This document shows, one piece after another, positions 168 to 19,453 of a DNA stretch of 64,000 nt. The notes under the pieces were generated by a model. It did not search any database, had not been told where the DNA came from, and worked only from the letters and a program-made list of their open reading frames with translations. The stretch's first letter is position 1; each line of letters begins with the position of its first letter. The position numbers and the translations under genes are program-made. The DNA is taken from NCBI GenBank assembly GCA_938084715.1, contig CALKES010000001.1, positions 1 through 64,000 of the forward strand, written 5' to 3'. The stretch comes from Candidatus Bipolaricaulota bacterium (lineage in GTDB: Bacteria > Bipolaricaulota > Bipolaricaulia > Bipolaricaulales > Bipolaricaulaceae).

Positions 168-625
168 CGGAGCCTCCGGGCGGCCAACTCCACCGCCTCC
201 ACGACCTGGGCGTACCCCGTGCACCGGCAGAGGTTCCCCGACAGGTACTCCCGGATCTCGTCCCGGGTGGGGTTCGGGTTCTCCTGGAGGAGGGCGTAGG
301 CCGCAAGGAGCAGCCCCGGGGTGCAGAACCCGCACTGGACGCCGGCGGTCTGGATGAACGCCTCCTGGAGGGGGTGGAGCTTCCCCTCCCGGGCGAGGCC
401 CTCCACGGTGAGGACGTCCTTCCCCTCGACCTGGATCGCCGCGGTGAGGCAGGAGAGGCGGGGCCTCCCGTCCACGAGGACCGTGCACGCCCCACACTCC
501 CCCTCTCCGCAGCCCTCCTTCGTCCCGGTGAGGCCGAGGTCCTCCCGGAGGAGATCCAGGAGCCTTCGCCCGGGGTGGACGTCCACCACCACCTCGCGGC
601 CGTTCAGCCGAAACCTGAGCTTCAC
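164..625 (-). CDS. [2Fe-2S] subunit of a xanthine dehydrogenase-family molybdenum hydroxylase
   Basis: This 153-residue protein has the normal length for the small iron-sulfur subunit (XdhC/CoxS/HcrC type). It binds two [2Fe-2S] clusters and relays electrons between the molybdenum and FAD subunits. The N-terminal plant-ferredoxin domain carries CGEGECGAC plus a later Cys near residue 59. The C-terminal four-helix domain carries CGFC (about 98-101) and CRC (about 133-135). Its ATG overlaps the TGA of the upstream PLP enzyme (ATGA), and its own stop overlaps the next gene. No molybdenum or FAD subunit lies beside it here. They may be beyond the left edge, or it may serve the complete enzyme at 13110-16752, which has its own Fe-S subunit. 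Confidence 0.93.
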   Translation of the reverse strand: MKLRFRLNGREVVVDVHPGRRLLDLLREDLGLTGTKEGCGEGECGACTVLVDGRPRLSCLTAAIQVEGKDVLTVEGLAREGKLHPLQEAFIQTAGVQCGFCTPGLLLAAYALLQENPNPTRDEIREYLSGNLCRCTGYAQVVEAVELAARRLR

Positions 626-4800: not shown

Positions 4801-5101
4801 CGTCGGCGGCGTCGATGCACGGCCGGGGGATCTCGAGCTCGTCCAGGATCTGAACGGTCTTGAGCTCGATGAACCGGCCGCCACAGAGCCAGGAGGAGAC
4901 GATGTTCTGGGCGAGCTGGGTGTGGGGCCCGGCTGCCGGCCCGATCGGGGTGAGGAGGGCTCTCCCGAACATCTCCGACGCGAAGGGCACCCCCGGGTCG
5001 GGGACCCAGAACGCCTCCCGGGGGACCCCGTAGATCGCCCCTCGGGAGTCGAGCTCCCCGAGGGCCCAGGCGAGGAGCCGCTCGAATGGAAGGGGCCGCA
5101 T
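1853..5101 (-). CDS. ygfK: YgfK-type multidomain Fe-S flavoprotein oxidoreductase
   Basis: This 1082-residue protein matches the length and layout of YgfK, once called a putative selenate reductase subunit and now tied to anaerobic purine/uric-acid catabolism. In order it has a dihydroorotate dehydrogenase-like barrel (about 1-420), a GltD-type ferredoxin segment (CVAAPCVERCPIGQ, about 440-455), an FAD site (VVGGGPAGLSAA, about 530), an NAD(P) site (VVVGGGNVAMDAA, about 660) and two C-terminal cysteine clusters (CLQCSSLCDKCVEVCP about 900, CNECGNCGTFC about 965). It is probably a cytoplasmic electron-transferring reductase. ATG 5101 is preferred over ATG 5116: it sits about five bases after GGAGGAGG and shares TGATG with the ssnA stop. 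Confidence 0.9.
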   Translation of the reverse strand: MRPLPFERLLAWALGELDSRGAIYGVPREAFWVPDPGVPFASEMFGRALLTPIGPAAGPHTQLAQNIVSSWLCGGRFIELKTVQILDELEIPRPCIDAADEGYNVEWSQELRLGESAGEYVKAWVLVHLLHRLLGFRGPVGTLFNMSVGYDLKGITSAPLQAFMDRLAGARDEVASLLREARAVRPELGEVEVPPRIATSVTLSTMHGCPPGEIEAIARHLLLDRRLPTFVKLNPTLLGKDGVLGILRDRLGFREVEIPDRVFDHDLQWEDAVPMLRRLRAVAREAGIPFGVKLSNTLAMANPRRVLPGDEVYMSGRALYPITMSLFRRLREALGADLPVSYSAGADSLNVATVLSCGARPVTAATDLLKPGGYGRLRDWLDKLSAEMGRRGARSLDELARDPEGSLARAAEEALANPRYRKEFFPHGLPKTERPLDRFDCVAAPCVERCPIGQDVPEYAWAIAHGDWDRALAVVLRRNPLPGILGYICTHVCESRCTRNNYDESVGIRLLKRAAFDRGREPELRPLAPSGRRAAVVGGGPAGLSAAYFLALSGIGVTVFEAGDAPGGMPALAPAFRIPQGVIDRDLSRIRGLGVEFRLRTPLARPPEELLGEGFDAVFVAVGLPADAPLGIPGEEGEGVYGAVDFLRGVRRGEPLPVGPRVVVVGGGNVAMDAARTASRLAGRPVTVAYRRTRAEMPADREEVDELLREGNEVLELVAPVAVVRRDGRVVALRLVRTRLGAPGPDGRRGFEPVPGSEFDLPADTVIVAVGQRAEAPFLAGSRISRTGDGRVRAEPTGRAGLEGVYAGGDLVRGAATIVEACADGRRAAEGICRDLGVPFWASPVPLPSLSPADVRAAKLARTRREVRREPPSLPAERRGGFDPVEGPLPPEEARAEALRCLQCSSLCDKCVEVCPNRAHVPWTAAPVRWSVPVLAVRDGALVEVGTEPFAVAQARQIAHVVDLCNECGNCGTFCVHQGEPFRDKPRFFLDPEAFRRDGGTAFHVASGAVFRREGGGEARLSGDGPWTYEDEEIFAVLDRDFRLVEVRLKRPFEGERSLRGAAEMAVLAPLRGDPLLGGRDG

Positions 5102-6426
5102 CACATCCTCCTCCACAGCCGAAGCGCCGCCTCCCGGGCCGCGGCGAGGGCCGCCCCCTCATCCAGGCCCGTCACGGTCCCATCCCGAAGTCGGGGGACC
5201 CCGGCCACGAGGACCGTCCGCGGCCGGATCCCCTCGGAGATCGCGCCAAACAGGAGGTGGGAGAGGAGGTTCCCCGCCTCAAGGGGCGTCGGCGGAACGT
5301 AGTCCCACAGGACGAGGTCCGCGGCGTACCCCGGGGCGACCCGGCCCAGGGGGACCCCGAACGCCCCCTCGGCCAGGCGGTAGTTCTCCCGGAGGAGGGA
5401 GAGAAGCTGGGGGTCGGGGAGGGTAGTGGGGTCCCCCGAGGCGTGGTGGGCGAGGAGCCGGGCCGCCAGGGCCTCGGTGAGGAGGTCCGAGCCGAACCCG
5501 TCCGTTCCCAGGGCAACGCGAATCCCCCGGGCGAGCATCGCCCCCACCGGGGCCGCCCCCACGGCGTTGTTCATGTTCGAGCGGGGGTTGTGGACCACCG
5601 TCCCCCCGCGGGAGAGGAGGAGCTCGAGCTCCGCCCCCGAGAGCTGGATCCCGTGGATGAGAAGCGACCCCTCCCCGAGGATCCCGAACCGATCGAGCCG
5701 CTCCGCCGTCCGAACCCCGTACCGTGCGAGGGCGTCCACAGGGTCCTCCTTCCCCTCGGCAAGGTGGACGTGGTAGCCCAGGCCGAGGGCTTCCGCCTCC
5801 GCTCGGGCCCGCGCGAGGGTCGCGTCGGAGAGGGTGAACGAGGCGTGGAGCCCGATGTGGGCGGCGAAGAACCCGGGGACCCGCTCCTCGCGGGCGTAGC
5901 GGACGTTCTCCCGGATCCCAGCGTCCCGCTCCGCCTCCCCCCCCCGGTCCGTGACCTCGTAGCAGAGGTCGGCCCGGAGCCCGACCGCTTCGATCGCCCG
6001 CTTGAGCGCGGCCAGGGAGCCCTCGATCGCCCCCGGGGAGGCGTGGTGGTCGAAGAGGGCCGTGACCCCGGACCGAAGGTGCCCGAGGGCCCCCACGACC
6101 CCGGAGTGGTAGACCCCGTCGAGGTCCAGGGCCCGGTCGAGCTTCCACCACAGCTGCTCGAGAATCTCCCGGAATGAAGTGGGATCGAACCGTTGCAGCG
6201 GGATCCCCCGGGCGAGGGCGGAGTAGAGGTGGGCGTGGGCGTTCACCAGCCCCGGCGTCACGAGCCTTCCCCCCGCGTCGAGGACGGCCGCCCCAGGGAG
6301 GGCGGGGGCCGGCCCCGGGCCGGCCCGGGCGATCCGGTCCCCCTCGACCACCACGTGCCCCTGCTCCCAGTAGGTCCCGAACAGATCCCCCACCCGCGCG
6401 TTCTCGATCACCAACGCCATGGCCAC
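5101..6426 (-). CDS. ssnA: SsnA-type amidohydrolase (putative aminohydrolase)
   Basis: A 441-residue metal-dependent amidohydrolase of the SsnA/guanine deaminase branch. The metal site is seen as VNAHAHLYSALARG (about 62-75), a mid-protein His (GLHASF region) and ALGTDGFGSD near residue 305. SsnA is a constant partner of YgfK in purine-degradation clusters, where it probably hydrolyses a ring or ureide intermediate. The substrate cannot be read from sequence. GTG 6426 is favoured over ATG 6420 because AGGAGG lies six bases upstream of the GTG. It follows ade by 10 bp and overlaps ygfK, so the genes form one operon. Confidence 0.88.
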   Translation of the reverse strand: MAMALVIENARVGDLFGTYWEQGHVVVEGDRIARAGPGPAPALPGAAVLDAGGRLVTPGLVNAHAHLYSALARGIPLQRFDPTSFREILEQLWWKLDRALDLDGVYHSGVVGALGHLRSGVTALFDHHASPGAIEGSLAALKRAIEAVGLRADLCYEVTDRGGEAERDAGIRENVRYAREERVPGFFAAHIGLHASFTLSDATLARARAEAEALGLGYHVHLAEGKEDPVDALARYGVRTAERLDRFGILGEGSLLIHGIQLSGAELELLLSRGGTVVHNPRSNMNNAVGAAPVGAMLARGIRVALGTDGFGSDLLTEALAARLLAHHASGDPTTLPDPQLLSLLRENYRLAEGAFGVPLGRVAPGYAADLVLWDYVPPTPLEAGNLLSHLLFGAISEGIRPRTVLVAGVPRLRDGTVTGLDEGAALAAAREAALRLWRRM

Positions 6427-6436
6427 AGTCTACCTC

Positions 6437-8212
6437 CTACACGAACGGGGAGACGATCTTCCCCCGCTCCACGTCCACCAGCCCCTGGTCCGTGACCCGC
6501 AGGGCGGGGATCACGGGAAGCGCAAGAAGCGAGAGCGTCATCAGGGCGTTGGGGAGGACCACCCCGCACCCCCGGAGGGCCCGCTGGACCTCGTCGAGGC
6601 CTGCGGCCACCTCCTCCGCCGGGCGGTCGGAGAGGATCCCCGCCACCGGAAGGGGAAGGAGGACGAGGACCTCCTCGCCCCGGACCACGGCGATCCCGCC
6701 CCCCGCCCGGGCCACCGCGTTCCCCGCCCGGGCCATCGCCCAGGGGTCCGTCCCCACAACGAGGAGGTGGTGGCTGTCGTGGGCCACCGTGCTCGCCAGG
6801 GCGCACCCGGGAGAGAGGCCGAGCCCAACGAGGACGGCCTTCCCAATCCGGCCGCTCCGGTGGTGGCGCTCCACCACCGCCGCCAGCGCCTTCCCCGCCG
6901 CGAGCTCCACCCGCCCGTTCCGAACCGGGAGGCGGACCCGCGCCTCCCTCGTCGGGGCCTGGTGTTCCACGAGCTCGATCGCCCGGACCTCGACCTCCCC
7001 CTCGGCGATCGGTCCCGAGAGGACGAAGTCCTCAGGGGACAGGGGGCGGGCGAGGCGGACCGTCCCCCGGGCCCAGCCCGGGTAGGAGAACGCGGGGAGA
7101 TCCCCCCGGAGCTCACCCGCCTCGGCGGCGATCCGGCCCGAGGCGAGGACGAGATCAACGAGGAAACGCTCCAGGTCGGCTACCACGAGGATGTCCGCGA
7201 TCCGCCCCGGGGCGATGGCCCCGATATCCCGAGCCACGCGGAAGTGCTCGGCCGTGTTGAGGGTCGCCATCTGGACCGCCGTGACGGGGGGAACGCCGGC
7301 GGCGATCGCCGACCGGACGACGTCGTCCATGTGCCCCTCCCGGAGGAGGGTTCGGGCGTCCCGGTCGTCGGTGGCAAGGAGGATGTAGCGGGGGTCAAGG
7401 CCCAACTCCGTCACCGCCCGCAGGCCCTGGGCGAGGTCCCGCCACGCCGACCCCTGGCGGAGGATCGCCCGCATCCCCTGCCGGACCCGGGCGAGGGCGT
7501 CCTCGGCCCGGGTCCCCTCGTGGCAGTCCGCCGGGCCCCCGGCGGCGTAGGCGTGAAACGGCCGCCCGAGGTCGGGGGACGCGTAGTGGCCGCCGACGAC
7601 CTTCCCCAGGCGAAGCGCGGCGGCGATCTTCCCGTGGACCTCCGGGTCCCCGGCGATCACCCCCGGGTAGTCCATCACCTCCCCCAGGCCCACGATCCCT
7701 GGCCAGGCCAGGGCTTCCTCCACCTCGGCCACCCCGAGCTCCGCCCCCGGCGTGTCCAGACCCCGGGCCGCCGGGACGCACGACGGGACCTGAAGAAAGA
7801 CCTTGAGGGGGAGGGCCCGGGCCTCGTCGAGGAACAGCTTCACCCCCCGGAGGCCGAGGACGTTGGCGATCTCGTGGGGGTCGGCGAACACCCCGGTCGT
7901 CCCCCGGGGGAGGACAGCCCGGGCAAACTCGGTTGGGGTGAGCATCGAGCTTTCGATGTGGACGTGGGCGTCGAGGAGCCCGGGGACGAGGTACCGGCCC
8001 GAAGCGTCGATCACCCGGGTGTCGGGGCCGATCATGGGGCGGGCGTCGGGCCCGCAGTAGGCGATCCGGTCCCCGAGGACGGCGACGTCCGTTTCTGGAA
8101 GGATCTCCCCGGAGAAGACGTTGACGAGGCGGCCGCTCCGGAGGACGAGGTCCGCCGGGCGGTCGCCCCGCGCCACGGCCGCGAGGTCCTGGGTTCGCTC
8201 AGATCCAGTCAC
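6437..8212 (-). CDS. ade: Adenine deaminase
   Basis: A 591-residue protein of normal length for the bacterial Ade family, which hydrolyses adenine to hypoxanthine and ammonia. It shows the metal-binding DAHVHIESS motif (about 74-82) and the family-specific FADPHEIANVLG (about 105-116). The C-terminal Ade domain follows, with AHDSHHLLVVG. It feeds hypoxanthine to the xanthine dehydrogenase encoded divergently at 13110. The GTG start at 8212 has no obvious Shine-Dalgarno sequence, and the true start could be slightly downstream. It lies just after a strong hairpin that separates it from the transporter genes, so it may have a separate or reduced transcription level. Confidence 0.93.
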   Translation of the reverse strand: MTGSERTQDLAAVARGDRPADLVLRSGRLVNVFSGEILPETDVAVLGDRIAYCGPDARPMIGPDTRVIDASGRYLVPGLLDAHVHIESSMLTPTEFARAVLPRGTTGVFADPHEIANVLGLRGVKLFLDEARALPLKVFLQVPSCVPAARGLDTPGAELGVAEVEEALAWPGIVGLGEVMDYPGVIAGDPEVHGKIAAALRLGKVVGGHYASPDLGRPFHAYAAGGPADCHEGTRAEDALARVRQGMRAILRQGSAWRDLAQGLRAVTELGLDPRYILLATDDRDARTLLREGHMDDVVRSAIAAGVPPVTAVQMATLNTAEHFRVARDIGAIAPGRIADILVVADLERFLVDLVLASGRIAAEAGELRGDLPAFSYPGWARGTVRLARPLSPEDFVLSGPIAEGEVEVRAIELVEHQAPTREARVRLPVRNGRVELAAGKALAAVVERHHRSGRIGKAVLVGLGLSPGCALASTVAHDSHHLLVVGTDPWAMARAGNAVARAGGGIAVVRGEEVLVLLPLPVAGILSDRPAEEVAAGLDEVQRALRGCGVVLPNALMTLSLLALPVIPALRVTDQGLVDVERGKIVSPFV

Positions 8213-8260: not shown

Positions 8261-9406
8261 TTACGGCTCTCCGGGCCACGGCCCGACAATCCCGGCCGCC
8301 GCCCACTCCATGGTGATGAGGCTCTCGTAGCTCATCCACATCCCCGCAGGAACCCGCAGGACCCCCTTCCGATCGTAGATCGGGCCCTCGAACGGATCGA
8401 AGGTGATCCCCGGGTCGGCGAACTGGTTGTAGCGGAGGAACACGAGGTCGTAGACCGAGATCCGGCCGAACTGGGGGTGGTTCACCACGTAGCCCTTGAG
8501 GGGAGCCACGTACTTGGGGTTGATCGGCATCCCCATCTCCGCCCCCAGCTCCGCCGCCCCTTGGGCGAGGAGCCACCAGTAGTCCACGTGGGCCAGGTTC
8601 TTCGTCGTGTAGACGCCCTGGTGGATCTTGAGGAGGAAGTCGTCGTAGATCTCTTCCCAGTGGACAAGCTGGCCCGAGACCACGTAGTCGGGGGCGAACG
8701 CGTACATCGGGGAGTAGTGGGCAAAGGAGGGGAACTTCCGCTCCGCGGCCACTTGGACCACCGTCGGGGAGTCCTCGGTGAACGCGAACACGTCACACCC
8801 CTCGGCGATGAGGGCCTCGGTCGCCTCCTTTGCCGCCGCCGGGTTGTACCACTCGTAGATCCACCGGACGTGGACCGTGGCCGTGGGGTTCACTTCCCGG
8901 ACTCCGATCGTGAACGCGCTGATGTGCCGCTTGAGTTCCGGGATGGGGAAGGCACCGACGTACCCGATCTTCCCTGTCTTGGTCAGCGCCCCGGCCATGA
9001 GGCCGTTGAGGTAGTACACCTGGTAGAAGTCGGCCATGTAGGTGGCCATGTTCGGGGCCCGCTTGAACCCGGACGCGTGGGCAAAGATGACGTTGGGATA
9101 CCGCTCCGCCGCCGCGAGGGTCCCGTCCATGAACCCGAAGCTCGTGGTGAAGATCACGTTGCAGCCCTGGCGCACGAGCTGATCGATGTAGGTCTCCACC
9201 TCCCCCTCGGGCACGCTCTCGATGTACACCGTCTCCAGCCAATCGTACTTCCCGTCCACGATCCGCCGCGCCACGTCGTGGGCATGGGTCCACCCGTAGT
9301 CCCCGATCGGGCCCACGTAGATGAACCCGGCCTTGATCCGCTGCGCCCCCAAACCCAAGACTCCCACCAACGCCAACGCCATCACGAAAATCGCTAGCTT
9401 CCGCAT
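8261..9406 (-). CDS. BMP-family nucleoside/purine ABC transporter substrate-binding protein
   Basis: A 381-residue exported binding protein of the basic-membrane-protein (BMP/PnrA) family, which captures nucleosides or nucleobases. The signal peptide is MRKLAIFVMALALVGVLG. There is no lipobox cysteine, so the protein should be soluble in a periplasm. Family features include KAGFIYVGPIGDYGWTHAHD at the mature N-terminus and KTGKIGYVGAFPIPE in the middle. ATG 9406 is chosen because GGAGGTGA precedes it at proper spacing. A longer in-frame extension upstream has no signal peptide. It is the last gene of the four-gene transporter unit and is followed by a hairpin, which may keep its mRNA abundant. 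Confidence 0.92.
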   Translation of the reverse strand: MRKLAIFVMALALVGVLGLGAQRIKAGFIYVGPIGDYGWTHAHDVARRIVDGKYDWLETVYIESVPEGEVETYIDQLVRQGCNVIFTTSFGFMDGTLAAAERYPNVIFAHASGFKRAPNMATYMADFYQVYYLNGLMAGALTKTGKIGYVGAFPIPELKRHISAFTIGVREVNPTATVHVRWIYEWYNPAAAKEATEALIAEGCDVFAFTEDSPTVVQVAAERKFPSFAHYSPMYAFAPDYVVSGQLVHWEEIYDDFLLKIHQGVYTTKNLAHVDYWWLLAQGAAELGAEMGMPINPKYVAPLKGYVVNHPQFGRISVYDLVFLRYNQFADPGITFDPFEGPIYDRKGVLRVPAGMWMSYESLITMEWAAAGIVGPWPGEP

Positions 9407-9485
9407 CTCCGTCACCTCCAAAGGTACCGTCCCCGAGTGTTCTACGGGCCTACCTGTTGGTTCTTTCCCGGTCTCACCTCCCTTG

Positions 9486-10415
9486 TCACCGCTCGCCGCG
9501 GACGTAGGGGACCCCGAGGGCTCCCGGGGCCCGGGCCCGCCACCGCGCCCTCCCGAAACCGCTCGCGGCCAGAACAAGGATCGCAAACGCGTAGGGCATC
9601 ATCTTGAGGAGCTCGGGGGAAACGTAGGCCTGGAGCCGGAACGAGAGGTGGTAGAGGGCCCCAAAGAAGAACGCGCCCCAGATCGCCTGGAGCGGGTCCC
9701 AGGCCGAGAAGATCGTCAGCGCGATCACGATCCACCCCATCCCTGCGGTCATCCCCTCCGTCCACGCCGGGCGGTAGGCCACCGAGAGGTACCCGCCTCC
9801 GACGCCGGCGAGCACGCCTCCCAAGGCCACGCACAGGTAGCGGACCCGCGCCACGCTGATCCCCAACGAGTCGGCCGTGGCCGGCGACTCCCCCACCGAG
9901 CGGATGGCGATCCCCCACCGGGTCCGGAACAGGACCACCCACAGGACAACTGCGAGGAGGAGACCGAGGTAGGTGAGGATCGTCTGGTCCCGGAACAGCA
10001 TCGGGCCTAGGACAGGGACATCGGACAGCACCGGAACGGCCACCGCGCCCAAGGGGGCCCGCAGCGGCCGCCCCTCCCAGCCCCGGCCGAGGAGGCCCGC
10101 GAGCCCGAGCCCAAACAGAGTGAGGGCGAGCCCGGACACGTACTGGTTGGCCCGCAGCGTCACGGTGAGGAAGGCGTGCCAGAGGGCCGCCAGGGCCCCC
10201 ACCCCCGCCGCGGCGAGGAGCCCCCACCCGGGGTGGCCAAGGGTCTGGGCGACAGCAAACCCGGCGTAGGCCCCGAGGATCATCATCCCCTCCACCCCGA
10301 GGTTCACCACCCCCGACCGCTCCGCGTAGATCTCGCCCAGGGTTCCCCACAGCAGGGGAACCCCGAACGCCAGCGCTCGGCTCACCGTCCCTACAAGCCA
10401 GCTTGTCCAGTCCAC
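9486..10415 (-). CDS. Nucleoside ABC transporter permease, second subunit
   Basis: A 309-residue integral membrane protein of the branched-chain/BMP-type permease family (NupQ/YufQ-like) with about eight hydrophobic segments. The diagnostic sequence is GEIYAERSGVVNLGVEGMM (about 27-45), with the conserved glutamate and the NLGVEG core, and later RTRWGIAIRSVGE. The GTG start at 10415 lies a few bases after AAGGAG and inside the end of the first permease gene (25-bp overlap). An apparent longer frame running through the upstream gene is a composition artefact. It pairs with the permease encoded just upstream to form the membrane channel. Confidence 0.9.
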   Translation of the reverse strand: MDWTSWLVGTVSRALAFGVPLLWGTLGEIYAERSGVVNLGVEGMMILGAYAGFAVAQTLGHPGWGLLAAAGVGALAALWHAFLTVTLRANQYVSGLALTLFGLGLAGLLGRGWEGRPLRAPLGAVAVPVLSDVPVLGPMLFRDQTILTYLGLLLAVVLWVVLFRTRWGIAIRSVGESPATADSLGISVARVRYLCVALGGVLAGVGGGYLSVAYRPAWTEGMTAGMGWIVIALTIFSAWDPLQAIWGAFFFGALYHLSFRLQAYVSPELLKMMPYAFAILVLAASGFGRARWRARAPGALGVPYVRGER

Positions 10416-11497
10416 GCCTTCTCCTTGGGGGCCCACCGCACCCGCCAGTACATGAGGAGGTCGGAGCTGATGAGGGAGAAGAGGATGAGCCCGTTGAACA
10501 CACCCGTGATCTGGAACGGAAGGCCGAGGGTCGTCTTCATGAGGTCGCCCGCGGCAAAGATGAGGCCAAACAGGAGCGCGGTGAAGACCGCGGCAATGGG
10601 GCTTCCCCGGGCGAGCCAGGCGACGATGATCGCCGTGTACCCGTAGCCCATCGAGACGTGCCCCGGGCTCCGCAGCCGCCAGTGGACCCCCGCCACCTCC
10701 CCCACTCCCGCCAGGGCCGCCAAGCCCCCGGAGAGGACCATCGCCAGGGCCAGGACGCTCGCAAAGCTGATTCCCGCGTACCGGGCGGCATCGGGGTTCT
10801 GCCCCACGACCCGGATCTCGTACCCCAGCCGCGTCCGGGAAAGGAGGAGGGCCACCACGACCGCCGCAAGCACCCCCACGGCGAGCGTCGGCCAGTGGAT
10901 CCGCGTCCCCGCGATCAGGGGAAGCCGGGCCGAGACGGGGAACATGTCCGTGTAGGCAAACCCCCGCATCGTGGGTCCCTTCCACGGGCCGTGGACGAGC
11001 CACTCCACGATGTAGGCCATGATGTAGTTCATCATCAGGGTCGAGATGACCTCGTTCACCCGGAGTTTGACCCGCAGGAGGGCCGGGACCACCGCCCACA
11101 CCGCCCCGGCCCCGAACCCGGCGAGGAACATGAGGGGAAGCCGGAACCCGTCGGGGACCCGAACGAACAGGGCCACCCCCGTGGCGGCCACCGCCCCCGC
11201 GAGAAGCTGCCCTTCCGCCCCGATGTTCCAAAACTGGGCCCGGAAGGCCAGCGTCAGCCCCACCCCACACAGGATGAGGGGGATCGCCCGGCGAACGATG
11301 TCGGAGAGCCCCCCGACGGTCCCCAAGGTCCCCCGGCCGATCTCGGAGTACGCCCGGACCGGGCTCACTCCGTAGGCCCAGAACACAAGCGCCGCAAGGA
11401 GAAGGGCCACCAGGACCGCCAGGAACGACACCCCGAACACCACGGACCGCGGGGGGGCCAGGCGCCGCTCGAGAAAGAGGGGCCCGAGGCGCTTCAC
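10391..11497 (-). CDS. Nucleoside ABC transporter permease, first subunit
   Basis: A 368-residue permease (NupP/YufP-like) with a hydrophobic N-terminal helix (about 20-43) and eight to nine further membrane segments. Family marks are the FWNIGAEGQLLAGA box (about 89-102, the counterpart of NLGVEG in its partner) and RVNEVISTLMMNYI (about 151-164). The GTG start overlaps the ATPase stop as GTGA. It forms the heterodimeric channel with the next gene and imports nucleosides or free bases for adenine deaminase and xanthine dehydrogenase. Confidence 0.92.
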   Translation of the reverse strand: MKRLGPLFLERRLAPPRSVVFGVSFLAVLVALLLAALVFWAYGVSPVRAYSEIGRGTLGTVGGLSDIVRRAIPLILCGVGLTLAFRAQFWNIGAEGQLLAGAVAATGVALFVRVPDGFRLPLMFLAGFGAGAVWAVVPALLRVKLRVNEVISTLMMNYIMAYIVEWLVHGPWKGPTMRGFAYTDMFPVSARLPLIAGTRIHWPTLAVGVLAAVVVALLLSRTRLGYEIRVVGQNPDAARYAGISFASVLALAMVLSGGLAALAGVGEVAGVHWRLRSPGHVSMGYGYTAIIVAWLARGSPIAAVFTALLFGLIFAAGDLMKTTLGLPFQITGVFNGLILFSLISSDLLMYWRVRWAPKEKAWTGQAGL

Positions 11498-13035
11498 CGC
11501 TCCTCCCCTACGGCCACCGTTCGCCGCTCCCCGGCCATCATCAGCCCGATCTCCTCCAGCGTCGCCTCCCCTGCCAGCACCGTCCCCATGATCTCCCCGC
11601 GGAACAGGACCGCGATTCGGTCCGCAAGCTCCATGATCTCCTCCAGGTCCTCGGAGACGAGGAGGATCCCCGCCCCCGCCTCCCGCTGGCGGAGGAGGAT
11701 CTCCCGGATCTGCTCGGTGGCCCCCACATCGAGGCCGTAGGTGGGGTGGGCCGCGATGACCAGGGCCGGGTTCCCCGAGAGCTCCCGGGCGAGAATGAGC
11801 TTCTGGATGTTCCCCCCCGAGAGGAGTTTGGCCGGGGTTCGGGGCCCCGGGGTCATGATCCGGTACTCCTCAATCGCCCGTCCCGCGAACTGGCGCACGG
11901 CGGCCAGGCGGAGGCCCCCCGCCCGGCAGAACGGTGGCCGATGGTGCTTCTTGAGGATGAGGTTCTCCTCCACCGAGAGCCCGGGCACGATCCCCAGGCG
12001 GATCCGCTCCTCGGGGACGTGGGCCACCCCCGCGTCGGCGATCCGCCGGGCCGAGGCCCGGGTCAGGTCTTGCCCGAGGATCGCCACCCGACCTCGCTCC
12101 GGCCGGCGGAGGCCCGTCAGGACCTCCACGAGCTCCCGCTGCCCGTTCCCCGCCACCCCGGCCAACCCTAGGATCTCCCCCCGGCAGACGGCGAGGGAGA
12201 TCCCCCGCAGGGCGGGGGTCCCACGGTCGGTCCGGGCGTGGAGGTCCTCGACCACGAGGGCCGCCTCCCCAGGCTGGCAGGCCTTCTTCGTGAGGCGGAA
12301 CACGACCTCCCGGCCGACCATCATCCGGGCCAGGGCCGCCTTGTCCGTCTCCTCCGCCCGCACCGTCCCCACCACCCTTCCCCGGCGCATGACCGTGATC
12401 CGGTCGGCCACGGAGAGGACCTCATCGAGCTTGTGGGAGATGAAGATGACCCCGTGGCCCTCGGCCTTCATCCGGCCCAGGACCTTGAAGAGTTCCCCCG
12501 CCTCCTGAGGGGTGAGGACGCTCGTGGGCTCGTCGAGGATGAGGACCTGGGCCCCGCGGATGAGGGCCTTGAGGATCTCCACCCGCTGCTGCTCCCCCGC
12601 GGAGAGCTCCCACACCCGGCGGTCGGGGTCCACGGGGAGGCCGTACCGCTCGGACAGCTCCTTGAGCTGCCGCCCCACGGTCCGCGCTGGGGCCCAAAAC
12701 GGGGTTCCGGAAAGGCCCAGGGCCACGTTCTCCGCCACCCCGTGGGGGGCGACGAGCTTGAAGTGCTGGTGGACCATCCCGATCCCGAGGTCGATGGCGT
12801 CCCGGGGAGAGCGGAGGTGAACCCGGCGCCCCCGGACCCAGATCTCCCCCTCGTCCGGCCGGTAGAGGCCGTAGAGGACGTTCATGAGGGTCGTCTTCCC
12901 GGCCCCGTTTTCCCCCAGCAGGGCGTGGACTTCCCCCGGTTGGAGGTCGAACGTGACCCGGTCGTTGGCCACCACACCCGGGAAGGACTTCGTGATGTTC
13001 CTCAGCAGGACGGCCTCCCGAGCTCCCTCCGCCAT
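11494..13035 (-). CDS. Nucleoside ABC transporter ATP-binding protein (tandem ATPase)
   Basis: A 513-residue protein with two fused ABC domains, as usual for the nucleoside/sugar (NupO/RbsA-like) group. The N-terminal domain has Walker A LLGENGAGKTTLMN (about 45), signature LSAGEQQR and Walker B VLILDEPTSVLT. The C-terminal domain has degenerate Walker A GVAGNGQRELVE and signature LSGGNIQK. It powers the two-permease channel encoded downstream. ATG 13035 is chosen because it is the first base after a consensus-like promoter with only six bases in between, implying a leaderless mRNA. An alternative in-frame start at 13071 would lie inside the -35 box. It is the first gene of the leftward operon. 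Confidence 0.93.
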   Translation of the reverse strand: MAEGAREAVLLRNITKSFPGVVANDRVTFDLQPGEVHALLGENGAGKTTLMNVLYGLYRPDEGEIWVRGRRVHLRSPRDAIDLGIGMVHQHFKLVAPHGVAENVALGLSGTPFWAPARTVGRQLKELSERYGLPVDPDRRVWELSAGEQQRVEILKALIRGAQVLILDEPTSVLTPQEAGELFKVLGRMKAEGHGVIFISHKLDEVLSVADRITVMRRGRVVGTVRAEETDKAALARMMVGREVVFRLTKKACQPGEAALVVEDLHARTDRGTPALRGISLAVCRGEILGLAGVAGNGQRELVEVLTGLRRPERGRVAILGQDLTRASARRIADAGVAHVPEERIRLGIVPGLSVEENLILKKHHRPPFCRAGGLRLAAVRQFAGRAIEEYRIMTPGPRTPAKLLSGGNIQKLILARELSGNPALVIAAHPTYGLDVGATEQIREILLRQREAGAGILLVSEDLEEIMELADRIAVLFRGEIMGTVLAGEATLEEIGLMMAGERRTVAVGEER

Positions 13036-13041
13036 GGGACC

Positions 13042-13071
13042 AGTATAGCGGGGGGCGGCCCGGAAGGTCAA
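13042..13071 (-). promoter_or_regulatory. Leftward sigma-70-type promoter of the nucleoside transporter operon
   Basis: On the minus strand TTGACC (13071-13066) and TATACT (13047-13042) are separated by 18 bp. The ATG of the ATPase begins after the next six bases, at the expected transcription start, so the message should be leaderless. This is close to consensus in an otherwise about 70 percent GC region. Confidence 0.7.
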
Positions 13072-13072
13072 G

Positions 13073-13102
13073 TTGCCTGACAGGTTGGCCGGGGGCTATA
13101 CT
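13073..13102 (+). promoter_or_regulatory. Rightward sigma-70-type promoter of the molybdenum hydroxylase operon
   Basis: TTGCCT (13073-13078), an 18-bp spacer and TATACT (13097-13102) are followed seven bases later by GTG 13110, again predicting a leaderless mRNA. Its -35 box lies one base from the -35 box of the opposite promoter. The palindrome CCTGACAGG (13076-13084) covers this -35 and is a possible operator. Confidence 0.65.
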
Positions 13103-13109
13103 CCCCCCG

Positions 13110-13967
13110 GTGAGCGGGATGCGCCTCCAGGGGGTTCGCCGGTTCCACCTCGCGCGGGACGTGGAGGAAGCCCTGTCCCTCCTCTCCGCCTACGACGGGC
13201 GGGGGGCGCTCCTCGCCGGGGGGGTCGACCTCCTCCGGGTGCCCGGCCGGGAGGTCGAGGGGCTGATCGACATCACGAGGATGGGCCTCGCGTTTGTGGA
13301 CGGGGCCGGCGGGAGGCTGCGGGTGGGGGCGACGACCACGCTGACCGAGGTCCTGGAGAGCCCGGACACCGCCCACTACGCGGGGGGAGTCCTCGCCGAG
13401 GTCCTGCGCGCGGTGGCCGTCCCCCCGCTGCGGAACATGGCTACCCTTGGGGGGGCGGTCGTCTCCGCCCACCCCTGGGCCGACCTCCCCACCGCCCTCG
13501 TCGCCCTCGGGGCCGAGGCCCGCTGGGTGGGAGACACGGAAGGTCGCGGCTCGGTCGAGGAGCTCTACCAGGGGGAGTTCCGGGGCCTGTTCCGGAAGGC
13601 CGTCCTCACCGAAATCCGGTTTCCCCCATGGGAGGGGGCGTTCGCCTACGAGAAGGTGGGCCGAAGCGCAACCGACATCGCCCTCCTCAACGCCTGCTGC
13701 GGGCTTGGAATGGACGATGGTACGATCGCCTGGGCCCGGGTGGCCGTGGGGGCCCGGCCCGAGCGAGGGGAGCGGCTCCCGTGGGCCGAGGAGGCCCTCG
13801 TGGGTCAGAAGGCAGGACCGGCCCTGTGGGCCGAGGTGGGAAGGCTCGTGGAGTCCAAGGTCGAGGTCGGGGACGACCGGCGGGCGGGCGGGACGTGGCG
13901 AAGGCACACCGCCGGGGTCCTCGTCGCCCGGGCGCTGGCCCGGGCCGCGGAGAAGGCGGCGGGATGA
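13110..13967 (+). CDS. FAD-binding subunit of a xanthine dehydrogenase-family enzyme
   Basis: A 285-residue protein of the CoxM/XdhB type, the FAD subunit that passes electrons from the Fe-S clusters to NAD+ or another acceptor. It shows the N-terminal flavin-binding segment around LLAGGVDLLRV (about 38-48) and the RNMATLGGAVVSAHPWAD loop (about 109-126), with a C-terminal CO-dehydrogenase flavoprotein domain. GTG 13110 is taken as the start because it falls at the predicted transcription start. ATG 13119, three codons later, also has no Shine-Dalgarno sequence. The stop overlaps the next gene as ATGA. Order FAD, Fe-S, Mo matches coxMSL-like operons. Confidence 0.9.
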   Translation: MSGMRLQGVRRFHLARDVEEALSLLSAYDGRGALLAGGVDLLRVPGREVEGLIDITRMGLAFVDGAGGRLRVGATTTLTEVLESPDTAHYAGGVLAEVLRAVAVPPLRNMATLGGAVVSAHPWADLPTALVALGAEARWVGDTEGRGSVEELYQGEFRGLFRKAVLTEIRFPPWEGAFAYEKVGRSATDIALLNACCGLGMDDGTIAWARVAVGARPERGERLPWAEEALVGQKAGPALWAEVGRLVESKVEVGDDRRAGGTWRRHTAGVLVARALARAAEKAAG

Positions 13968-14437
13968 GGGTCGCCTTTGAGCTCAACGGAACGCCCCAGT
14001 ACCTGGACGTGGATCCGGGGGAGCCCCTCGTCGCCCTCCTCCGCCGGCTGGGGATGAAGTCGGTCAAAGAGGGGTGCGACACGGGGGACTGCGGGGCGTG
14101 CACGGTCCTCCTCGACGGCCGCGCGGTCCGCTCCTGCCTCATGGTCGCCCCCCAGGTCCAGGGGCGGAAGGTCACCACCGTGGAGGCGCTGGGCACCGTG
14201 GACGATCCCCACCCCCTCCAGCGGGCGTTCCTCGACGCCGGGGCCGTCCAGTGCGGGTTCTGCACCCCGGGGATGGTCCTCGTGGCCTACGAGCTCCTCG
14301 GCCGAAACGACGACCCCACCCCGGACGAGGTGCGGGAGGCGATCGCTGGGAACCTCTGCCGGTGCACGGGGTACGTCAAGATCGTGGACGCGGTCCTCCT
14401 CGCCGCCCGGTGGAAGCGGGAGGGGAGATGGCGGTAG
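13964..14437 (+). CDS. [2Fe-2S] subunit of the molybdenum hydroxylase
   Basis: A 157-residue protein. It is a second, complete copy of the family seen at 164-625. The ferredoxin-domain motif is CDTGDCGAC (about 43-51) with a further Cys near 63. The C-terminal domain has CGFC (about 102-105) and CRC (about 137-139). It carries two [2Fe-2S] clusters linking the Mo site to FAD. The ATG overlaps the preceding TGA, and its end overlaps the Mo subunit by 10 bp, so the three subunits are coupled and probably made in equal amounts. Confidence 0.95.
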   Translation: MRVAFELNGTPQYLDVDPGEPLVALLRRLGMKSVKEGCDTGDCGACTVLLDGRAVRSCLMVAPQVQGRKVTTVEALGTVDDPHPLQRAFLDAGAVQCGFCTPGMVLVAYELLGRNDDPTPDEVREAIAGNLCRCTGYVKIVDAVLLAARWKREGRWR

Positions 14438-16752
14438 AGACCCGGAAGCGGGGCGCGGTCGGGCAAAACGTGACGAAGGTCGACGGGCCGTCCCTCGTGG
14501 CCGGGAAGCCCGTGTTCACCCTCGACCTCGACCTCCCCGGAACGCTCATCGGGAAGATCCTCCCCTCCCCCCACGCCCACGCCGAGATCGTCCGAATCGA
14601 CACCTCGGAGGCCGAGGCCGTCCCCGGGGTCCGGGCGATCCTCCACTTCGGGAACGTCCCCCGGGTCCCCTACACGACCGCCGGCCAGGGGTGGCCCGAG
14701 CCCTCCCCCTACGACACCGTCCTCTTCGACCGCAAGGTCCGGTTCGTGGGGGACCGGGTGGCGGCGGTGGCCGCGGAGACGGAAGAAGCGGCCCGGGAGG
14801 CCCTCGGGAAAATCCGGGTTGAGTACAACGTCCTCCCCGCCGTCCTCTCCCCCGAGGAGGCCCTTGCCGACGGGGCCCCAGTAGTCCACGACGAGCCCGA
14901 CGCCGAGGGGATCTACGACGCGCGGAAGAACATCGCCGCCGCGGTGGACATCCCGGTGGGGGACGTCGAGCGGGCCCTCGCCGAGGCCCCGGTCACCGTC
15001 GAGGCCGCGTGCGAGATCCCCTACTCCCAGCACTGTGCGATCGAGCCCCACTGCGTCCTTGCCTACTTCGACGAGGTGGGACGCCTCGTCCTGCGGACCT
15101 CAACCCAAGTCCCCTTCCACGTCCGGCGGATTGTGGCCCGGGTCGTGGGCCTCGACCCAGCCCGGATCCGGGTTGTGAAACCCCGGATCGGCGGGGGGTT
15201 CGGCTCCAAGCAGGAGATCCTCCTTGAGCCTGTGGCCGCCCTCCTCGCCCTGCGGACCGGCCGGCCCGTCCGGATGGCCTACACCCGGGAGGAGGTGTTC
15301 GTCTCCTCCCGGACCCGGCACCCGATGCGGGTTGCGGTCCGGCTCGGGGCGGGCAACGACGGCGTCCTCCAGGCGGTGGACATGGAGGTCCTCTCGAACA
15401 CCGGGGCCTACGGGACCCACGCCCTAACGGTCCTCTCCAACGTGGGCTCCAAAACCCTCCCCCTCTACAACAAGGCCCGCCACCTCCGATTCCACGGCAA
15501 GGCGGTGTACACGAACCTCCCCGTGGCCGGGGCGTACCGGGGGTACGGGGCGACCCAGGGGTTCTTCGCCCTCGAAGTGGCGATGGACAAGCTTGCGGAA
15601 CGGCTGCGGATGGACCCCGTGGAGCTCCGGCGGCGGAACCACATCCGGGCTGGGGAGACCTCGCCCATCTTCGAGAAGATCGGCGAGGGCCGGGAAGGGA
15701 CGGCCCAGATCGTCCGCTCCTGTGCCCTGGAGGAGTGCCTGCGGGTGGGAGCCGAGCGGATCGGGTGGAAGGAGAAGCGGGCCAGGCGCCGGGAGGAGGG
15801 GCCGTGGGCCTACGGGGTCGGGATGTCCTGCGCGATGCAGGGGTCGGGGATCACCGGGGTGGACATGGCCGCGGCGACCCTCGTCATGCAGGACGACGGG
15901 AGCTTCCGGCTCCTGGTGGGGGCGACCGACCTGGGGACGGGCTCGGACACGATCCTCGCCCAGATCGCCGCCGAGGAGCTCGGGGTCCCTGTGGACCGGG
16001 TCCTCGTCTACTCCTCGGACACGGACTTCACCCCGTTCGACACCGGCGCCTACGCCTCGAGCACGACCTACGTGTCGGGAAACGCCGTCCTCCGGGCGGC
16101 CCAGGAGGTGCGGTGGCAGATCCTCGAGGTGGCTGGGGCCGCCCTGGGGGAACCGCCGGAGGTCCTGGAGCTTTCCGGCGGGGCGGTGGAGAGCCGGCGG
16201 AGCGGGAGGCGGCTGACGTTGGCCGAGGTCGGGCACCGGGCGACCTACGTGACGGAGCAGCGGCAGATCGCGGCCACGGCGTCCTTCGCCTGCCCGGAGT
16301 CCCCGCCCCCGTTCGCCGCCTTCTTCTGCGAGGTCGCGGTGGACCGGGAGACGGGCGTGGTACGAGTAGAGCGGTTCGTCGCCGCCGCCGACTGCGGGAC
16401 GGCGATCCACCCCAAAGGCGCCGAGGGGCAGCTTGAAGGGGCGGTCCTCCAGGGGATCGGCCACGCTCTCTACGAGGAGATGCTGTTTGCCAAAAGCGGC
16501 CGGTGCGTGAACGCAAGCTTCTTCGACTACAAGGTCCCCTCCGCCCTCGACGCCCCACGGATCGAGGCGATCCTCGTCCCCAGTGAAGAGCCCACCGGCC
16601 CGTGGGGGGCGAAGTCGATCTCCGAGATCGGGATCAACGGGCCGCTGCCGGCGATCTCCAACGCGATCTACCACGCGGTGGGGGTGCGGATGGTCCGGGC
16701 CCCGTTCACCCCAGAGCGGGTCGCCGCCGCCCTCCGGCTCCAAGGGAGGTGA
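14428..16752 (+). CDS. Molybdopterin-binding catalytic subunit, xanthine dehydrogenase family
   Basis: A 774-residue large subunit (XdhA/CoxL/HcrA type) that hydroxylates a purine or related heterocycle at the Mo-cytosine-dinucleotide centre. Visible marks are the a/b-hammerhead N-terminal domain, PRIGGGFGSKQE (about 253-264), AGAYRGYGATQGFFALE (about 369-385), the QGSGITG loop (about 471), and near the C-terminus GAKSISEIGINGPLPAISNA, which carries the active-site glutamate. No in-frame TGA is present, so it does not encode selenocysteine. Xanthine is the most likely substrate given adenine deaminase and the nucleobase transporter opposite, but related substrates cannot be excluded. ATG 14428 follows GGGAGGGGAG. 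Confidence 0.92.
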   Translation: MAVETRKRGAVGQNVTKVDGPSLVAGKPVFTLDLDLPGTLIGKILPSPHAHAEIVRIDTSEAEAVPGVRAILHFGNVPRVPYTTAGQGWPEPSPYDTVLFDRKVRFVGDRVAAVAAETEEAAREALGKIRVEYNVLPAVLSPEEALADGAPVVHDEPDAEGIYDARKNIAAAVDIPVGDVERALAEAPVTVEAACEIPYSQHCAIEPHCVLAYFDEVGRLVLRTSTQVPFHVRRIVARVVGLDPARIRVVKPRIGGGFGSKQEILLEPVAALLALRTGRPVRMAYTREEVFVSSRTRHPMRVAVRLGAGNDGVLQAVDMEVLSNTGAYGTHALTVLSNVGSKTLPLYNKARHLRFHGKAVYTNLPVAGAYRGYGATQGFFALEVAMDKLAERLRMDPVELRRRNHIRAGETSPIFEKIGEGREGTAQIVRSCALEECLRVGAERIGWKEKRARRREEGPWAYGVGMSCAMQGSGITGVDMAAATLVMQDDGSFRLLVGATDLGTGSDTILAQIAAEELGVPVDRVLVYSSDTDFTPFDTGAYASSTTYVSGNAVLRAAQEVRWQILEVAGAALGEPPEVLELSGGAVESRRSGRRLTLAEVGHRATYVTEQRQIAATASFACPESPPPFAAFFCEVAVDRETGVVRVERFVAAADCGTAIHPKGAEGQLEGAVLQGIGHALYEEMLFAKSGRCVNASFFDYKVPSALDAPRIEAILVPSEEPTGPWGAKSISEIGINGPLPAISNAIYHAVGVRMVRAPFTPERVAAALRLQGR

Positions 16753-16818: not shown

Positions 16819-17829
16819 ATGAAGCGCAGCGTGACGTGTGCGATGCTGGTGCTGGCCTTGGCCAGCGCGGGACTGGCCCAGACGAACCTCAAGTTCACCC
16901 TCGACTGGGCCTATCAAGGTCCTCAAGCCCCGTTCCTCGTCGCCCTCGCCAAGGGCTACTTCGCCCAGGAAGGCCTGAACGTGATCATCGACCGCGGGTA
17001 CGGGTCGGCGGACGCGGTGAGCAAGATCGCCGGCGGCGCCTACGACCTCGGGTACGCCGACATCAACTCGATGATCGAGTTCAACGTTACGAACCCCGAT
17101 GCGGCCCTCATCGCGATCGCCATCGTCCTCGATAAAGCCCCGTTCTCTCTCGTGACCCTCAAGGGGAAGGGGATTGCGACCCCGAAGGACGTCGAGGGGA
17201 AGAGGATCGGTGCCCCCGCGGGAGACGCCAGTCGGCGTCTGTTCCCGTTGTTTGCCATGGCAACAGGGATCGATCAGAGCAAGATCGGGGAGTGGACGAC
17301 CATGACGCCCGCGCTGCGGGAGCAGCTTCTCATCCAGGGTCAGGTGGACGTCATCAGCGCCCACTTCTTCACCGCCGTCCTCAACCTCAGGGCCGCCGGC
17401 GTCCCCGAGGACCAGATCCAGGTCTTCCTCTACGCCGACTACGGGCTCGATCTCTACGGAAACGCGGTGATGTGCTCGCCAAACCTCCTCCAGGAAAAGC
17501 CGGAGGCGGTGCGGGGGTTCCTGCGGGCCCTCACCAGGGCCTGGCATGATACGATTGCCAACCCCGACGAGGCGATCCGGATCCTCCAGGCCCGCGACCC
17601 CCTCATCGACCCGGCGGTGGAGAAGGCGCGGCTGCTTCTGGCGATCGAGCGGTGCATGCTCACCCCGGACGTTCTCGAGCGGGGGTTCGGCGACGCCAAA
17701 CTCGTCCGCCTGGCGGGGGCGATCGCCCTCGTGGCCCAGGCGTTCGGGCTTCCGACGGTGCCCACTCCCGATCAGGTGTTCACGGGCGCGTTCCTGCCGC
17801 CCCTCGAGGACCGGCTTCCCCGGAAGTGA
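16819..17829 (+). CDS. NMT1/THI5-type ABC transporter substrate-binding protein
   Basis: A 336-residue periplasmic binding protein (SsuA/ThiY/NMT1 superfamily). The signal peptide is MKRSVTCAMLVLALASAGLA and there is no lipobox. The mature protein starts with the family pattern FTLDW-x(7)-PFLVALAKGYFAQEGL, and GYGSADAVSKIAGGAYDLGYAD follows. The best-known ligands of this group are thiamin-pyrimidine precursors, sulfonates and nitrate. Beside a molybdenum hydroxylase a nucleobase, hydantoin or pyrimidine is plausible but unproven. AAGGAGG lies just upstream. It is 66 bp after the Mo subunit with no clear promoter between, so it is probably the fourth gene of the operon. Confidence 0.88.
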   Translation: MKRSVTCAMLVLALASAGLAQTNLKFTLDWAYQGPQAPFLVALAKGYFAQEGLNVIIDRGYGSADAVSKIAGGAYDLGYADINSMIEFNVTNPDAALIAIAIVLDKAPFSLVTLKGKGIATPKDVEGKRIGAPAGDASRRLFPLFAMATGIDQSKIGEWTTMTPALREQLLIQGQVDVISAHFFTAVLNLRAAGVPEDQIQVFLYADYGLDLYGNAVMCSPNLLQEKPEAVRGFLRALTRAWHDTIANPDEAIRILQARDPLIDPAVEKARLLLAIERCMLTPDVLERGFGDAKLVRLAGAIALVAQAFGLPTVPTPDQVFTGAFLPPLEDRLPRK

Positions 17830-17837
17830 GGTGAGAC

Positions 17838-17864
17838 GGGGCCGGAGGTGAACCCTCCGGCCCC
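17838..17864 (+). terminator. Hairpin plus pyrimidine tract between binding protein and ATPase genes
   Basis: GGGGCCGGAGG (17838-17848), loop TGAAC and CCTCCGGCCCC (17854-17864) form a perfect 11-bp stem followed by TTTCCCTT. It has the shape of an intrinsic terminator but lies inside the transporter operon, immediately before the ATPase start, so it probably gives partial termination and an excess of binding protein over membrane components. Confidence 0.6.
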
Positions 17865-17870
17865 TTTCCC

Positions 17871-18695
17871 TTGGCAGAACTGGCCCGAGGCAGCACCGAG
17901 AGAGCCGAGCTCGCGGTGGAGTTCCGGGGGGTGGGGCTCACCTACCGGGCCAAGGACGGCTCGACCCTCGCCCTGGAGGGGGTGGACCTCGCCGTCCGCC
18001 CCGGCGAGTTCGTGGCCGTCGTCGGCCCCAGCGGCTGCGGGAAGACCACGTTCCTCAAGCTCACCTCCGGCCTCCTCCTCCCCACGAAGGGGACGGTGCG
18101 GGTGGAGGGGGAACCGGTGCGGGGGCCGCTCAAGATCGTGGGGATGGCGTTCCAAAACCCGACCCTTCTTCCGTGGCGGACGACCCTGGACAACGTCCTC
18201 CTCCCCCTGGAGATCGTCCAGCCCCACCGACGGCTCTACCGCCGGAACCGGGCCGCGTACCGGGAGAAGGCCCTGGACCTCCTCCGGTCCGTGGGCCTGG
18301 AGGGGTTCGCCCGCCGTCACCCCTGGCAGCTTTCGGGGGGAATGCAGCAGCGGGCATCCCTGTGCCGGGCCCTCATCCACGAGCCGGACATCCTCCTCCT
18401 CGACGAGCCTTTTGGAGCCCTGGACGCCTTCACCCGGGAGGAACTGTGGCTGGTCCTGCAGAAGCTCTGTATGGAGCGGAAGTGCACGACGGTGCTGGTG
18501 ACCCATGACCTCCGGGAGGCGATCTTCCTCGCCGACACCGTGCACGTGATGAGCAAGCGCCCGGGGCGGCTCGTGGCCCGGCGGGAGGTGTCCTTCCCCC
18601 GCCCCCGGGGCCTGGAGGTCGCGTTCACCCCCCAGTTCCTCGACCTCTACCAGGGGATCCGGGGGCTCATCGGTGAGGTGCGGGAGGCCCCATGA
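17871..18695 (+). CDS. ABC transporter ATP-binding protein (SsuB/ThiZ/TauB-like)
   Basis: A 274-residue single-domain ATPase. Walker A is VGPSGCGKTTFLK (about 53-65), the signature LSGGMQQRASL (about 157), Walker B ILLLDEPFGALD and the His loop LVTHD. It drives import by the permease encoded next. The start is uncertain. TTG 17871 gives the full family N-terminus but has no Shine-Dalgarno sequence and sits six bases after the hairpin stem. GTG 17916 is the next in-frame choice and would still keep the conserved domain. Weak initiation here would reinforce the excess of binding protein. Confidence 0.9.
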   Translation: MAELARGSTERAELAVEFRGVGLTYRAKDGSTLALEGVDLAVRPGEFVAVVGPSGCGKTTFLKLTSGLLLPTKGTVRVEGEPVRGPLKIVGMAFQNPTLLPWRTTLDNVLLPLEIVQPHRRLYRRNRAAYREKALDLLRSVGLEGFARRHPWQLSGGMQQRASLCRALIHEPDILLLDEPFGALDAFTREELWLVLQKLCMERKCTTVLVTHDLREAIFLADTVHVMSKRPGRLVARREVSFPRPRGLEVAFTPQFLDLYQGIRGLIGEVREAP

Positions 18696-19453
18696 ACACG
18701 CGTGAACGCCTGATCAACTACGGACTTCCGGCGCTCGCCCTCCTGGGGCTGTTCCTCCTCTGGGAATGGGCGTCCTTCCAGTTCAAGATCCCTCGGTTCA
18801 TCCTCCCCGCCCCCTCCGTCGTCGCCCGGTCCCTGTGGCAGTGGAGATCAGCGATCCTGGGCCACGCCGCCCAGACCCTCTACACCACCCTCGTGGGGTT
18901 TGGGATCGCGGTGGGGTTCGGCCTCCTCCTGGGCTGGCTCGTGGGGTTCTCCGCCCTCCTCTACAAGGCCGTCTACCCGATCCTCATCGGGTTCAACAGC
19001 ATCCCCAAGGTGGCCATCGTCCCCGTCCTCGTGATCTGGTTCGGGATCGGGACCGTTCCCGCGGTGCTCACCGCGTTCCTCATCTCGTTCTTCCCCATCG
19101 TGGTCAACGTGGCCACCGGCCTGGCGACCCTCGAGCCGGAGCTTCAGGACGTCCTGCGCTCCCTGGGAGCGGGGAAGCTCCAGATCTTCCGCAAGGTGGG
19201 GCTCCCCCGGACGCTTCCCTACTTCTTCGCCTCGATGAAGGTCGCCGTGACCCTGGCGTTTGTGGGGTCGGTGATCAGCGAGACCGTGGCCTCCAACCGC
19301 GGGGTGGGGTACCTCATGATCGCCGCGAGCTCCCGGTTCGATGTGCCGCTCGTGTTCGCCGGGCTCCTCGTCATCGCCGCGCTGGGGGTCGTCCTTTACG
19401 CCGTGTTTGCGATCCTGGAAGGGAGGCTCACGAGCTGGGCCTACCGGAGGTGA
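18692..19453 (+). CDS. ABC transporter permease (SsuC/ThiX/TauC-like)
   Basis: A 253-residue inner-membrane permease with about six hydrophobic helices. The cytoplasmic loop that contacts the ATPase is present: EPELQDVLRSLGAGKLQIF (about 149-167), the EAA motif with its conserved glycine, followed by KVGLPRTLPYFFASMKVA. ATG overlaps the ATPase stop as ATGA. As a homodimer with the upstream ATPase and binding protein it forms a complete importer. Confidence 0.92.
   Translation: MNTRERLINYGLPALALLGLFLLWEWASFQFKIPRFILPAPSVVARSLWQWRSAILGHAAQTLYTTLVGFGIAVGFGLLLGWLVGFSALLYKAVYPILIGFNSIPKVAIVPVLVIWFGIGTVPAVLTAFLISFFPIVVNVATGLATLEPELQDVLRSLGAGKLQIFRKVGLPRTLPYFFASMKVAVTLAFVGSVISETVASNRGVGYLMIAASSRFDVPLVFAGLLVIAALGVVLYAVFAILEGRLTSWAYRR

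Follow-up and report, generated by a model that had tools for sequence, protein, structure and literature searches.

Gene content of the locus

The window, a stretch of 64,000 nucleotides, comes from a Candidatus Bipolaricaulota genome of 1.38 Mb and 70% GC, and carries two divergent operons on either side of the intergenic region 13036-13118. The left operon, on the minus strand, is headed by the ATPase of a BMP-type ABC transporter (11494-13035, profile search), with a probable leaderless start at 13035, and continues with two ABC permeases (10391-11497 and 9486-10385, together 9486-11497; profile search), a BMP/PnrA-type substrate-binding protein (8261-9421; PF02608, E=2e-39), an adenine deaminase (6437-8176), an SsnA-type aminohydrolase (5101-6426) and a YgfK-type flavo/Fe-S reductase (1853-5116), the last three scoring over the cut-offs of TIGR01178, NF005540 and TIGR03315, respectively. 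The right operon, on the plus strand, encodes an enzyme of the xanthine dehydrogenase (XDH) type: a FAD subunit (13119-13967; PF00941 and PF03450), most likely from ATG 13119 as judged by start comparison, a [2Fe-2S] subunit (13964-14437), an open frame identified by subunit order and matching frames in relatives, and a molybdopterin subunit (14410-16752; NF043082, E=1e-210, below the curated cut-off). The reductive uric-acid pathway is characterised by SsnA, YgfK and an XDH-type enzyme (PMC12507026), and all three are present.

At the end of the left operon, 164-1860 (minus strand), lie genes for a second Fe-S subunit of the XDH type and for a PLP protein resembling threonine synthase. In a related genome (G001), the equivalent segment runs on to a second FAD subunit, which suggests that a second molybdenum hydroxylase takes part in the pathway. 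Just downstream of the XDH operon, an SsuA/B/C-like ABC importer (16843-19453, plus strand) could import another purine-related substrate.

Overlapping divergent promoters between the two operons

A preliminary description of the locus, made from the sequence, had placed two back-to-back promoters in the intergenic region, and we find them as claimed. On the minus strand, TTGACC (13071-13066) is separated by 18 bp from TATACT (13047-13042), itself six nucleotides from ATG 13035-13033; on the plus strand, TTGCCT (13073-13078) is separated by 18 bp from TATACT (13097-13102), seven nucleotides from GTG 13110. A single base, 13072, lies between the two -35 boxes. The palindrome CCTGACAGG, said in the same description to be common to both boxes, is not: it occupies 13076-13084, takes in just the three final bases of the right -35 and leaves the left -35 untouched, so that these positions rule it out as a dyad spanning both.

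A promoter scan of 17 kb returned three matches (0.3 expected from shuffles), two of which are the promoters described here. The left -35 is kept as TTGACC or TTGACA in 28/29 sites, and the right -35, which falls within the operator core described below, was likewise recovered from the sequence, the promoter scan and the orthologous sites. Both -10 boxes are kept in an alignment of ten congeneric genomes; the right one, kept in orthologous sites, gives a predicted 5' end at about 13109/13110. All together, these data support a pair of predicted sigma-70-type promoters that overlap divergently and are conserved in the Bipolaricaulaceae.

A conserved operator-like block shared by both promoters

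What both promoters have in common is a larger block, 13066-13084 (plus strand), reading GGTCAAGTTGCCTGACAGG in the window and KGTCAAGTTGYCTKACAG as a family consensus, which was delimited by conservation and motif search. Indeed, the conserved sequence between the two -10 boxes, GGTCAAGTTGYCTKACAG, is more than two -35 boxes: GGTCAAGTTGYCTGACAGG is invariant but for one C/T in 10/10 congeneric orthologues, with variable spacers around it, and the block is conserved in more than ten genera, orthologues from a dozen further genera having it in its consensus form. It contains a FadR-type core, TTGCCTGACAG, at 13073-13083 (centre 13078).

The block is kept while its neighbours change. It lies between ABC transporter and XDH genes, between adenine deaminase and XDH genes, or between SsnA and XDH genes (G030), and in G033 and G034 it lies between the ABC ATPase and a second ABC set that is followed by XDH. 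Two incomplete assemblies (G007 and G008) keep the site and show only distant relatives of the GntR protein discussed below. The G030 site (L206) is a variant, GTCAAAGTGTCTTACAG, and no GntR orthologue was found in that 85%-complete assembly.

In 100 Bipolaricaulota genomes, the exact pattern GTCAANYTGYCTKACAG has 29 matches and the reversed control pattern has none. All but two (27/29) are purine divergons or GntR promoters of Bipolaricaulaceae. The remaining two lie in a sister family, upstream of a PLP-lyase gene whose contig also carries a GntR gene of 37% identity; this PLP-lyase gene is the one that is divergent from GntR in the Bipolaricaulaceae. Related genomes are not independent observations in these counts, because the same neighbourhood is inherited. 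Within 757 kb of the source genome, the core YTGYCTGACAG occurs twice (0.75 expected under a first-order Markov model), at the purine divergon and at the GntR promoter. A close match to the operator within the window, CTCAAGTTGTCCGACAAG at 62792-62809 (minus strand), is inside rpoC without a promoter and was taken as chance.

A candidate regulator of the GntR/FCD family

When up to three mismatches were allowed, the family search returned the purine site and a second recurrent site just upstream of a GntR-family gene. In the source genome (G000), this gene is found away from the purine divergon, at 13435-14157 of contig C6, and its operator copy at 14163-14179. Across the family, YTGYCWGRCAG (with one-base variants) stands directly after the -10 in 27/27 readable GntR promoters. 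The encoded protein combines an N-terminal HTH (PF00392) and a C-terminal FCD domain (PF07729), both over cut-off, which is the domain pair of FadR-subfamily regulators. No other FCD protein is encoded in this genome; weak GntR-like matches on contigs C9 and C32 proved to be partial HTH domains without FCD. It scores below the cut-off of all NCBIfam equivalogs, the best being LldR (105 of 311 bits). Its FCD domain has a D, H, H, H set that is invariant in 27/27 sequences, the usual metal-site set of FCD proteins, and this conserved site suggests a carboxylate ligand. The gene adjoins those for a carbamate kinase and a carbamoyltransferase, and PLP lyase and XdhC genes are divergent from it. 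The earlier proposal that one factor bound between the promoters could switch uptake and oxidation together is thus supported, with this FCD-type GntR protein, which pairs with the operator, as the candidate.

At the GntR locus (L030, 14163-14190 of C6), ATGCTAGCAT comes after the operator; this perfect palindrome gives a TAGCAT -10 on both strands, and the GntR and PLP-lyase promoters may therefore overlap face to face.

Start codons of the two divergent genes

The preliminary description predicted that both mRNAs are leaderless and that neither start has a Shine-Dalgarno (SD) sequence. On the left, the sequence comparison supports both predictions. In nearly every orthologous site of the family, the -10 and the ATG are 5-10 nt apart (5-8 nt within the genus, even in G003, G007 and G008, where the left gene is an adenine deaminase); the start is conserved and has no SD. 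The ABC ATPase gene is thus very probably leaderless from ATG 13035. Extending its frame to TTG 13071 was rejected: the start would fall inside the -35 box and the conserved ATG would be ignored.

On the right, neither prediction is supported. GTG 13110 is not conserved as a start, and it is contained in an SD-like GGTGA (13109-13113, plus strand), at the predicted 5' end of the transcript and 5 nt before the in-frame ATG 13119. GGTGA would be able to pair with the 16S rRNA, since the 3' end of the latter reads ...GGATCACCTCCTTTCT and its UCACC is complementary. In G001 and G009, the sequence is GTG-AGY-TGA plus a one-base shift, so the first GTG, out of frame and with a stop at codon 3, cannot be their start, yet GGTGA is retained. 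GGTGA or AAGGAGG/AAGGTGA stands at the equivalent place in most orthologues, the predicted right 5' end reading AAGGAGG in the g6 genomes and AAGGTGA in g2 and g9. In G039 and G016 the SD is absent, and an ATG at the codon matching ATG 13119 lies 8-9 nt from the -10. In G005, GGTGA is lost, with ATG at the first position and GTG at the second. Hence GTG 13110 is not an in-frame conserved start without an SD-led alternative. Starts in relatives fall at the codon matching ATG 13119, so that the leader of the right gene would be about 10 nt.

It could still be argued that neither mRNA has a leader, the two starting at ATG 13035 and GTG 13110 as first described. The -10 lies 7 nt from this GTG, 12 family sites have an in-frame GTG or ATG at exactly this distance (ATG in G005), and the source genome commonly has leaderless genes, including some that start with GTG. 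A leaderless GTG in this genome is therefore possible but less likely, and we regard the doubly leaderless reading as unlikely, given the interrupted GTG frame beside an intact GGTGA in G001 and G009, and the other genera that have AAGGAGG/AAGGTGA at this place or a first start at the codon equivalent to ATG 13119. For the right gene, a leaderless start at GTG 13110 is probably not used, and translation most likely begins at ATG 13119. The most fitting description of its mRNA is one with a minimal leader made up of hardly anything but an SD; leaderless variants occur occasionally.

A regulatory model for purine uptake and oxidation

The predicted promoters, the candidate operator with its GntR pairing and the start-codon pattern are documented by sequence comparison. 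From these we infer direct binding, repression, a ligand and transcript ends in a model that we consider, with good confidence, the best explanation of the whole: a divergon with one operator, an autoregulated FCD-GntR repressor, a leaderless left mRNA and a right gene read from ATG 13119. The region 13036-13118 would be a regulated divergon, its operator lying between and over the -35 regions of two sigma-70-type promoters. A dimer of the GntR protein would bind there, centred on 13078, and block RNA polymerase both at the purine uptake/SsnA/YgfK operon on the left and at the XDH operon on the right; through the same operator, it would repress its own gene. A carboxylate intermediate of the pathway, held at the FCD D/H/H/H site, would release it. 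The left mRNA would be leaderless from ATG 13035, and the right mRNA would start near 13109/13110 and be translated from ATG 13119, with the GGTGA SD at its extreme 5' end.

The positions of the operator are consistent with this model. The core covers the right -35, its GTCAA flank is the left -35, and its centre precedes the predicted right start by 31 nt and the left one by 43 nt. At the GntR gene the operator is just downstream of the gene's own -10, and the protein is therefore probably a repressor that also represses itself. All three positions would suit steric repression with autoregulation, the sign being read purely from position; a lone site that lies across -35 boxes might also serve to activate one of the sides.

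Three other readings of the block were weighed against a GntR repressor. It might be only two abutting -35 boxes without a dedicated regulator, since GGTCAA and TTGYCT would pass as -35 boxes, each 18 bp from a good -10; however, the invariant part extends past them through KACAG, and the same 17-mer recurs at the GntR promoter, where the core is downstream of the -10, and upstream of the sister-family PLP lyase, which makes this very improbable. Slightly less credit still goes to another regulator (LysR, MarR or purine-specific) that binds the palindrome while the GntR link is coincidental: part of the block does fit loose dyads of other families, but the core resembles the published FadR-subfamily form (PMC4494728). 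The site is, moreover, common to 27/27 readable GntR promoters and to a GntR-linked pathway gene of the sister family. Finally, the GntR protein could activate one or both purine operons. FadR itself can activate, and an operator centred 43 nt upstream of the left start has a position used by activators. Against this, the core covers the -35 box of the right promoter, and its place directly after the -10 of the GntR gene makes activation implausible there. Most FCD regulators of catabolic genes repress. We thus consider an activator improbable, if less so than the two other readings, and retain the GntR repressor.

Relation to known systems

FadR-subfamily sites consist of TKGT/ACMA boxes, usually 3 nt apart and often in divergons (PMC4494728). 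Most sites of the present family, TTGT-CTT-ACAG, have one mismatch to TKGT-N3-ACMA, and the window site, TTGC-CTG-ACAG, has two. The likeness to the members LldR, PdhR, GlcC and HpxS extends to the GntR HTH plus FCD architecture, a short palindrome close to their form (GT/AC usually 3 nt apart) and the single sites between divergent operons; those members control organic-acid and amino-acid-like catabolism (PMC4494728). In contrast, the GntR protein described here is not an orthologue of any of them, its predicted targets serve reductive purine degradation, and the core is accompanied by a GTCAA flank of constant sequence and spacing. Bipolaricaulota are absent from the table of analysed taxa in that comparative study.

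The reductive uric-acid cluster of E. coli and gut anaerobes comprises XdhD-YgfK-SsnA-HyuA-YgeW-YgeY-YgeX-YqeA (PMC12507026). As there, XDH-type subunits, YgfK, SsnA, carbamate kinase, carbamoyltransferase and a PLP lyase are present here, under a common predicted operator. Unlike in that cluster, the genes are split over two loci and linked to a BMP-type ABC importer and an adenine deaminase; the carbamoyltransferase scores below the YgeW cut-off, and the PLP lyase is only CysK-like, without a match to a YgeX model. Bipolaricaulota are not among the phyla named for the pathway in the passages of PMC12507026 consulted, the word 'regulator' is absent from its main text, and our literature search found no paper that names Bipolaricaulota along with both xanthine and purine. 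Each element is of a known kind, be it the FadR-type divergon, the autoregulation, the pathway or the leaderless genes. The predicted pair of regulator and operator in Bipolaricaulota, with its regulon, appears to be undescribed in the literature searched. Genetic work on this phylum is scarce, and the pair provides a regulator, an operator and a regulon of anaerobic purine degradation that can be put to the test.

Leaderless genes across the genome

Genome-wide statistics cover 757 kb of the source genome. Since the gene finder relied on codon usage alone to choose starts, the fractions of leaderless and of SD-led genes are rough in absolute terms, and the informative figure is the comparison with control distances. 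A good -10 lies 5-9 nt from the start in 37/347 genes preceded by a gap of at least 40 nt, against 7-15 (about 10) in control windows (P about 1e-10), and none of the listed leaderless cases has an SD 5-mer. The earlier remark that most genes in the window have an SD was overstated: by a crude count, an SD 5-mer precedes 43/87 genes of the contig, and 11/32 of those whose upstream gap is 40 nt or longer.

Among 86 divergent pairs of the source genome, eight are leaderless-like on both sides, against 0-1 at control distances, the purine divergon being counted among the eight although its right side is doubtful; the double-leaderless layout itself is therefore not exceptional. Corresponding counts are 3/51 in G001 and 3/45 in G020 (0-1 in controls). 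This comparison shows genes predicted to be leaderless to be a real minority class in Bipolaricaulota, over-represented as back-to-back pairs, and both points bear on gene-start annotation in the phylum. The leaderless genes of Deinococcus-Thermus (PMC12340547) likewise have the -10 hexamer 6-9 nt before the start and no SD; in the present genome, by comparison, they are a minority class. Good -35 boxes and an operator set the purine pair apart from most other leaderless genes of the source genome, which lack them. Compact divergent promoters whose mRNAs are both leaderless or nearly so may thus be a recurrent layout in Bipolaricaulota, to which a single FadR-type operator would here have been added, coupling both directions and letting one dimer set purine uptake and oxidation essentially without untranslated RNA; we put this forward tentatively, as possible rather than probable.

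In seven further divergent pairs of the source genome, each start has a good -10 at a distance of 5-10 nt, in most cases without a recognisable -35: C5 65768-67586, C5 78214-81001, C6 33933-37980, C8 17805-19501, C9 82803-84184, C14 8051-9291 and C16 32401-34648.
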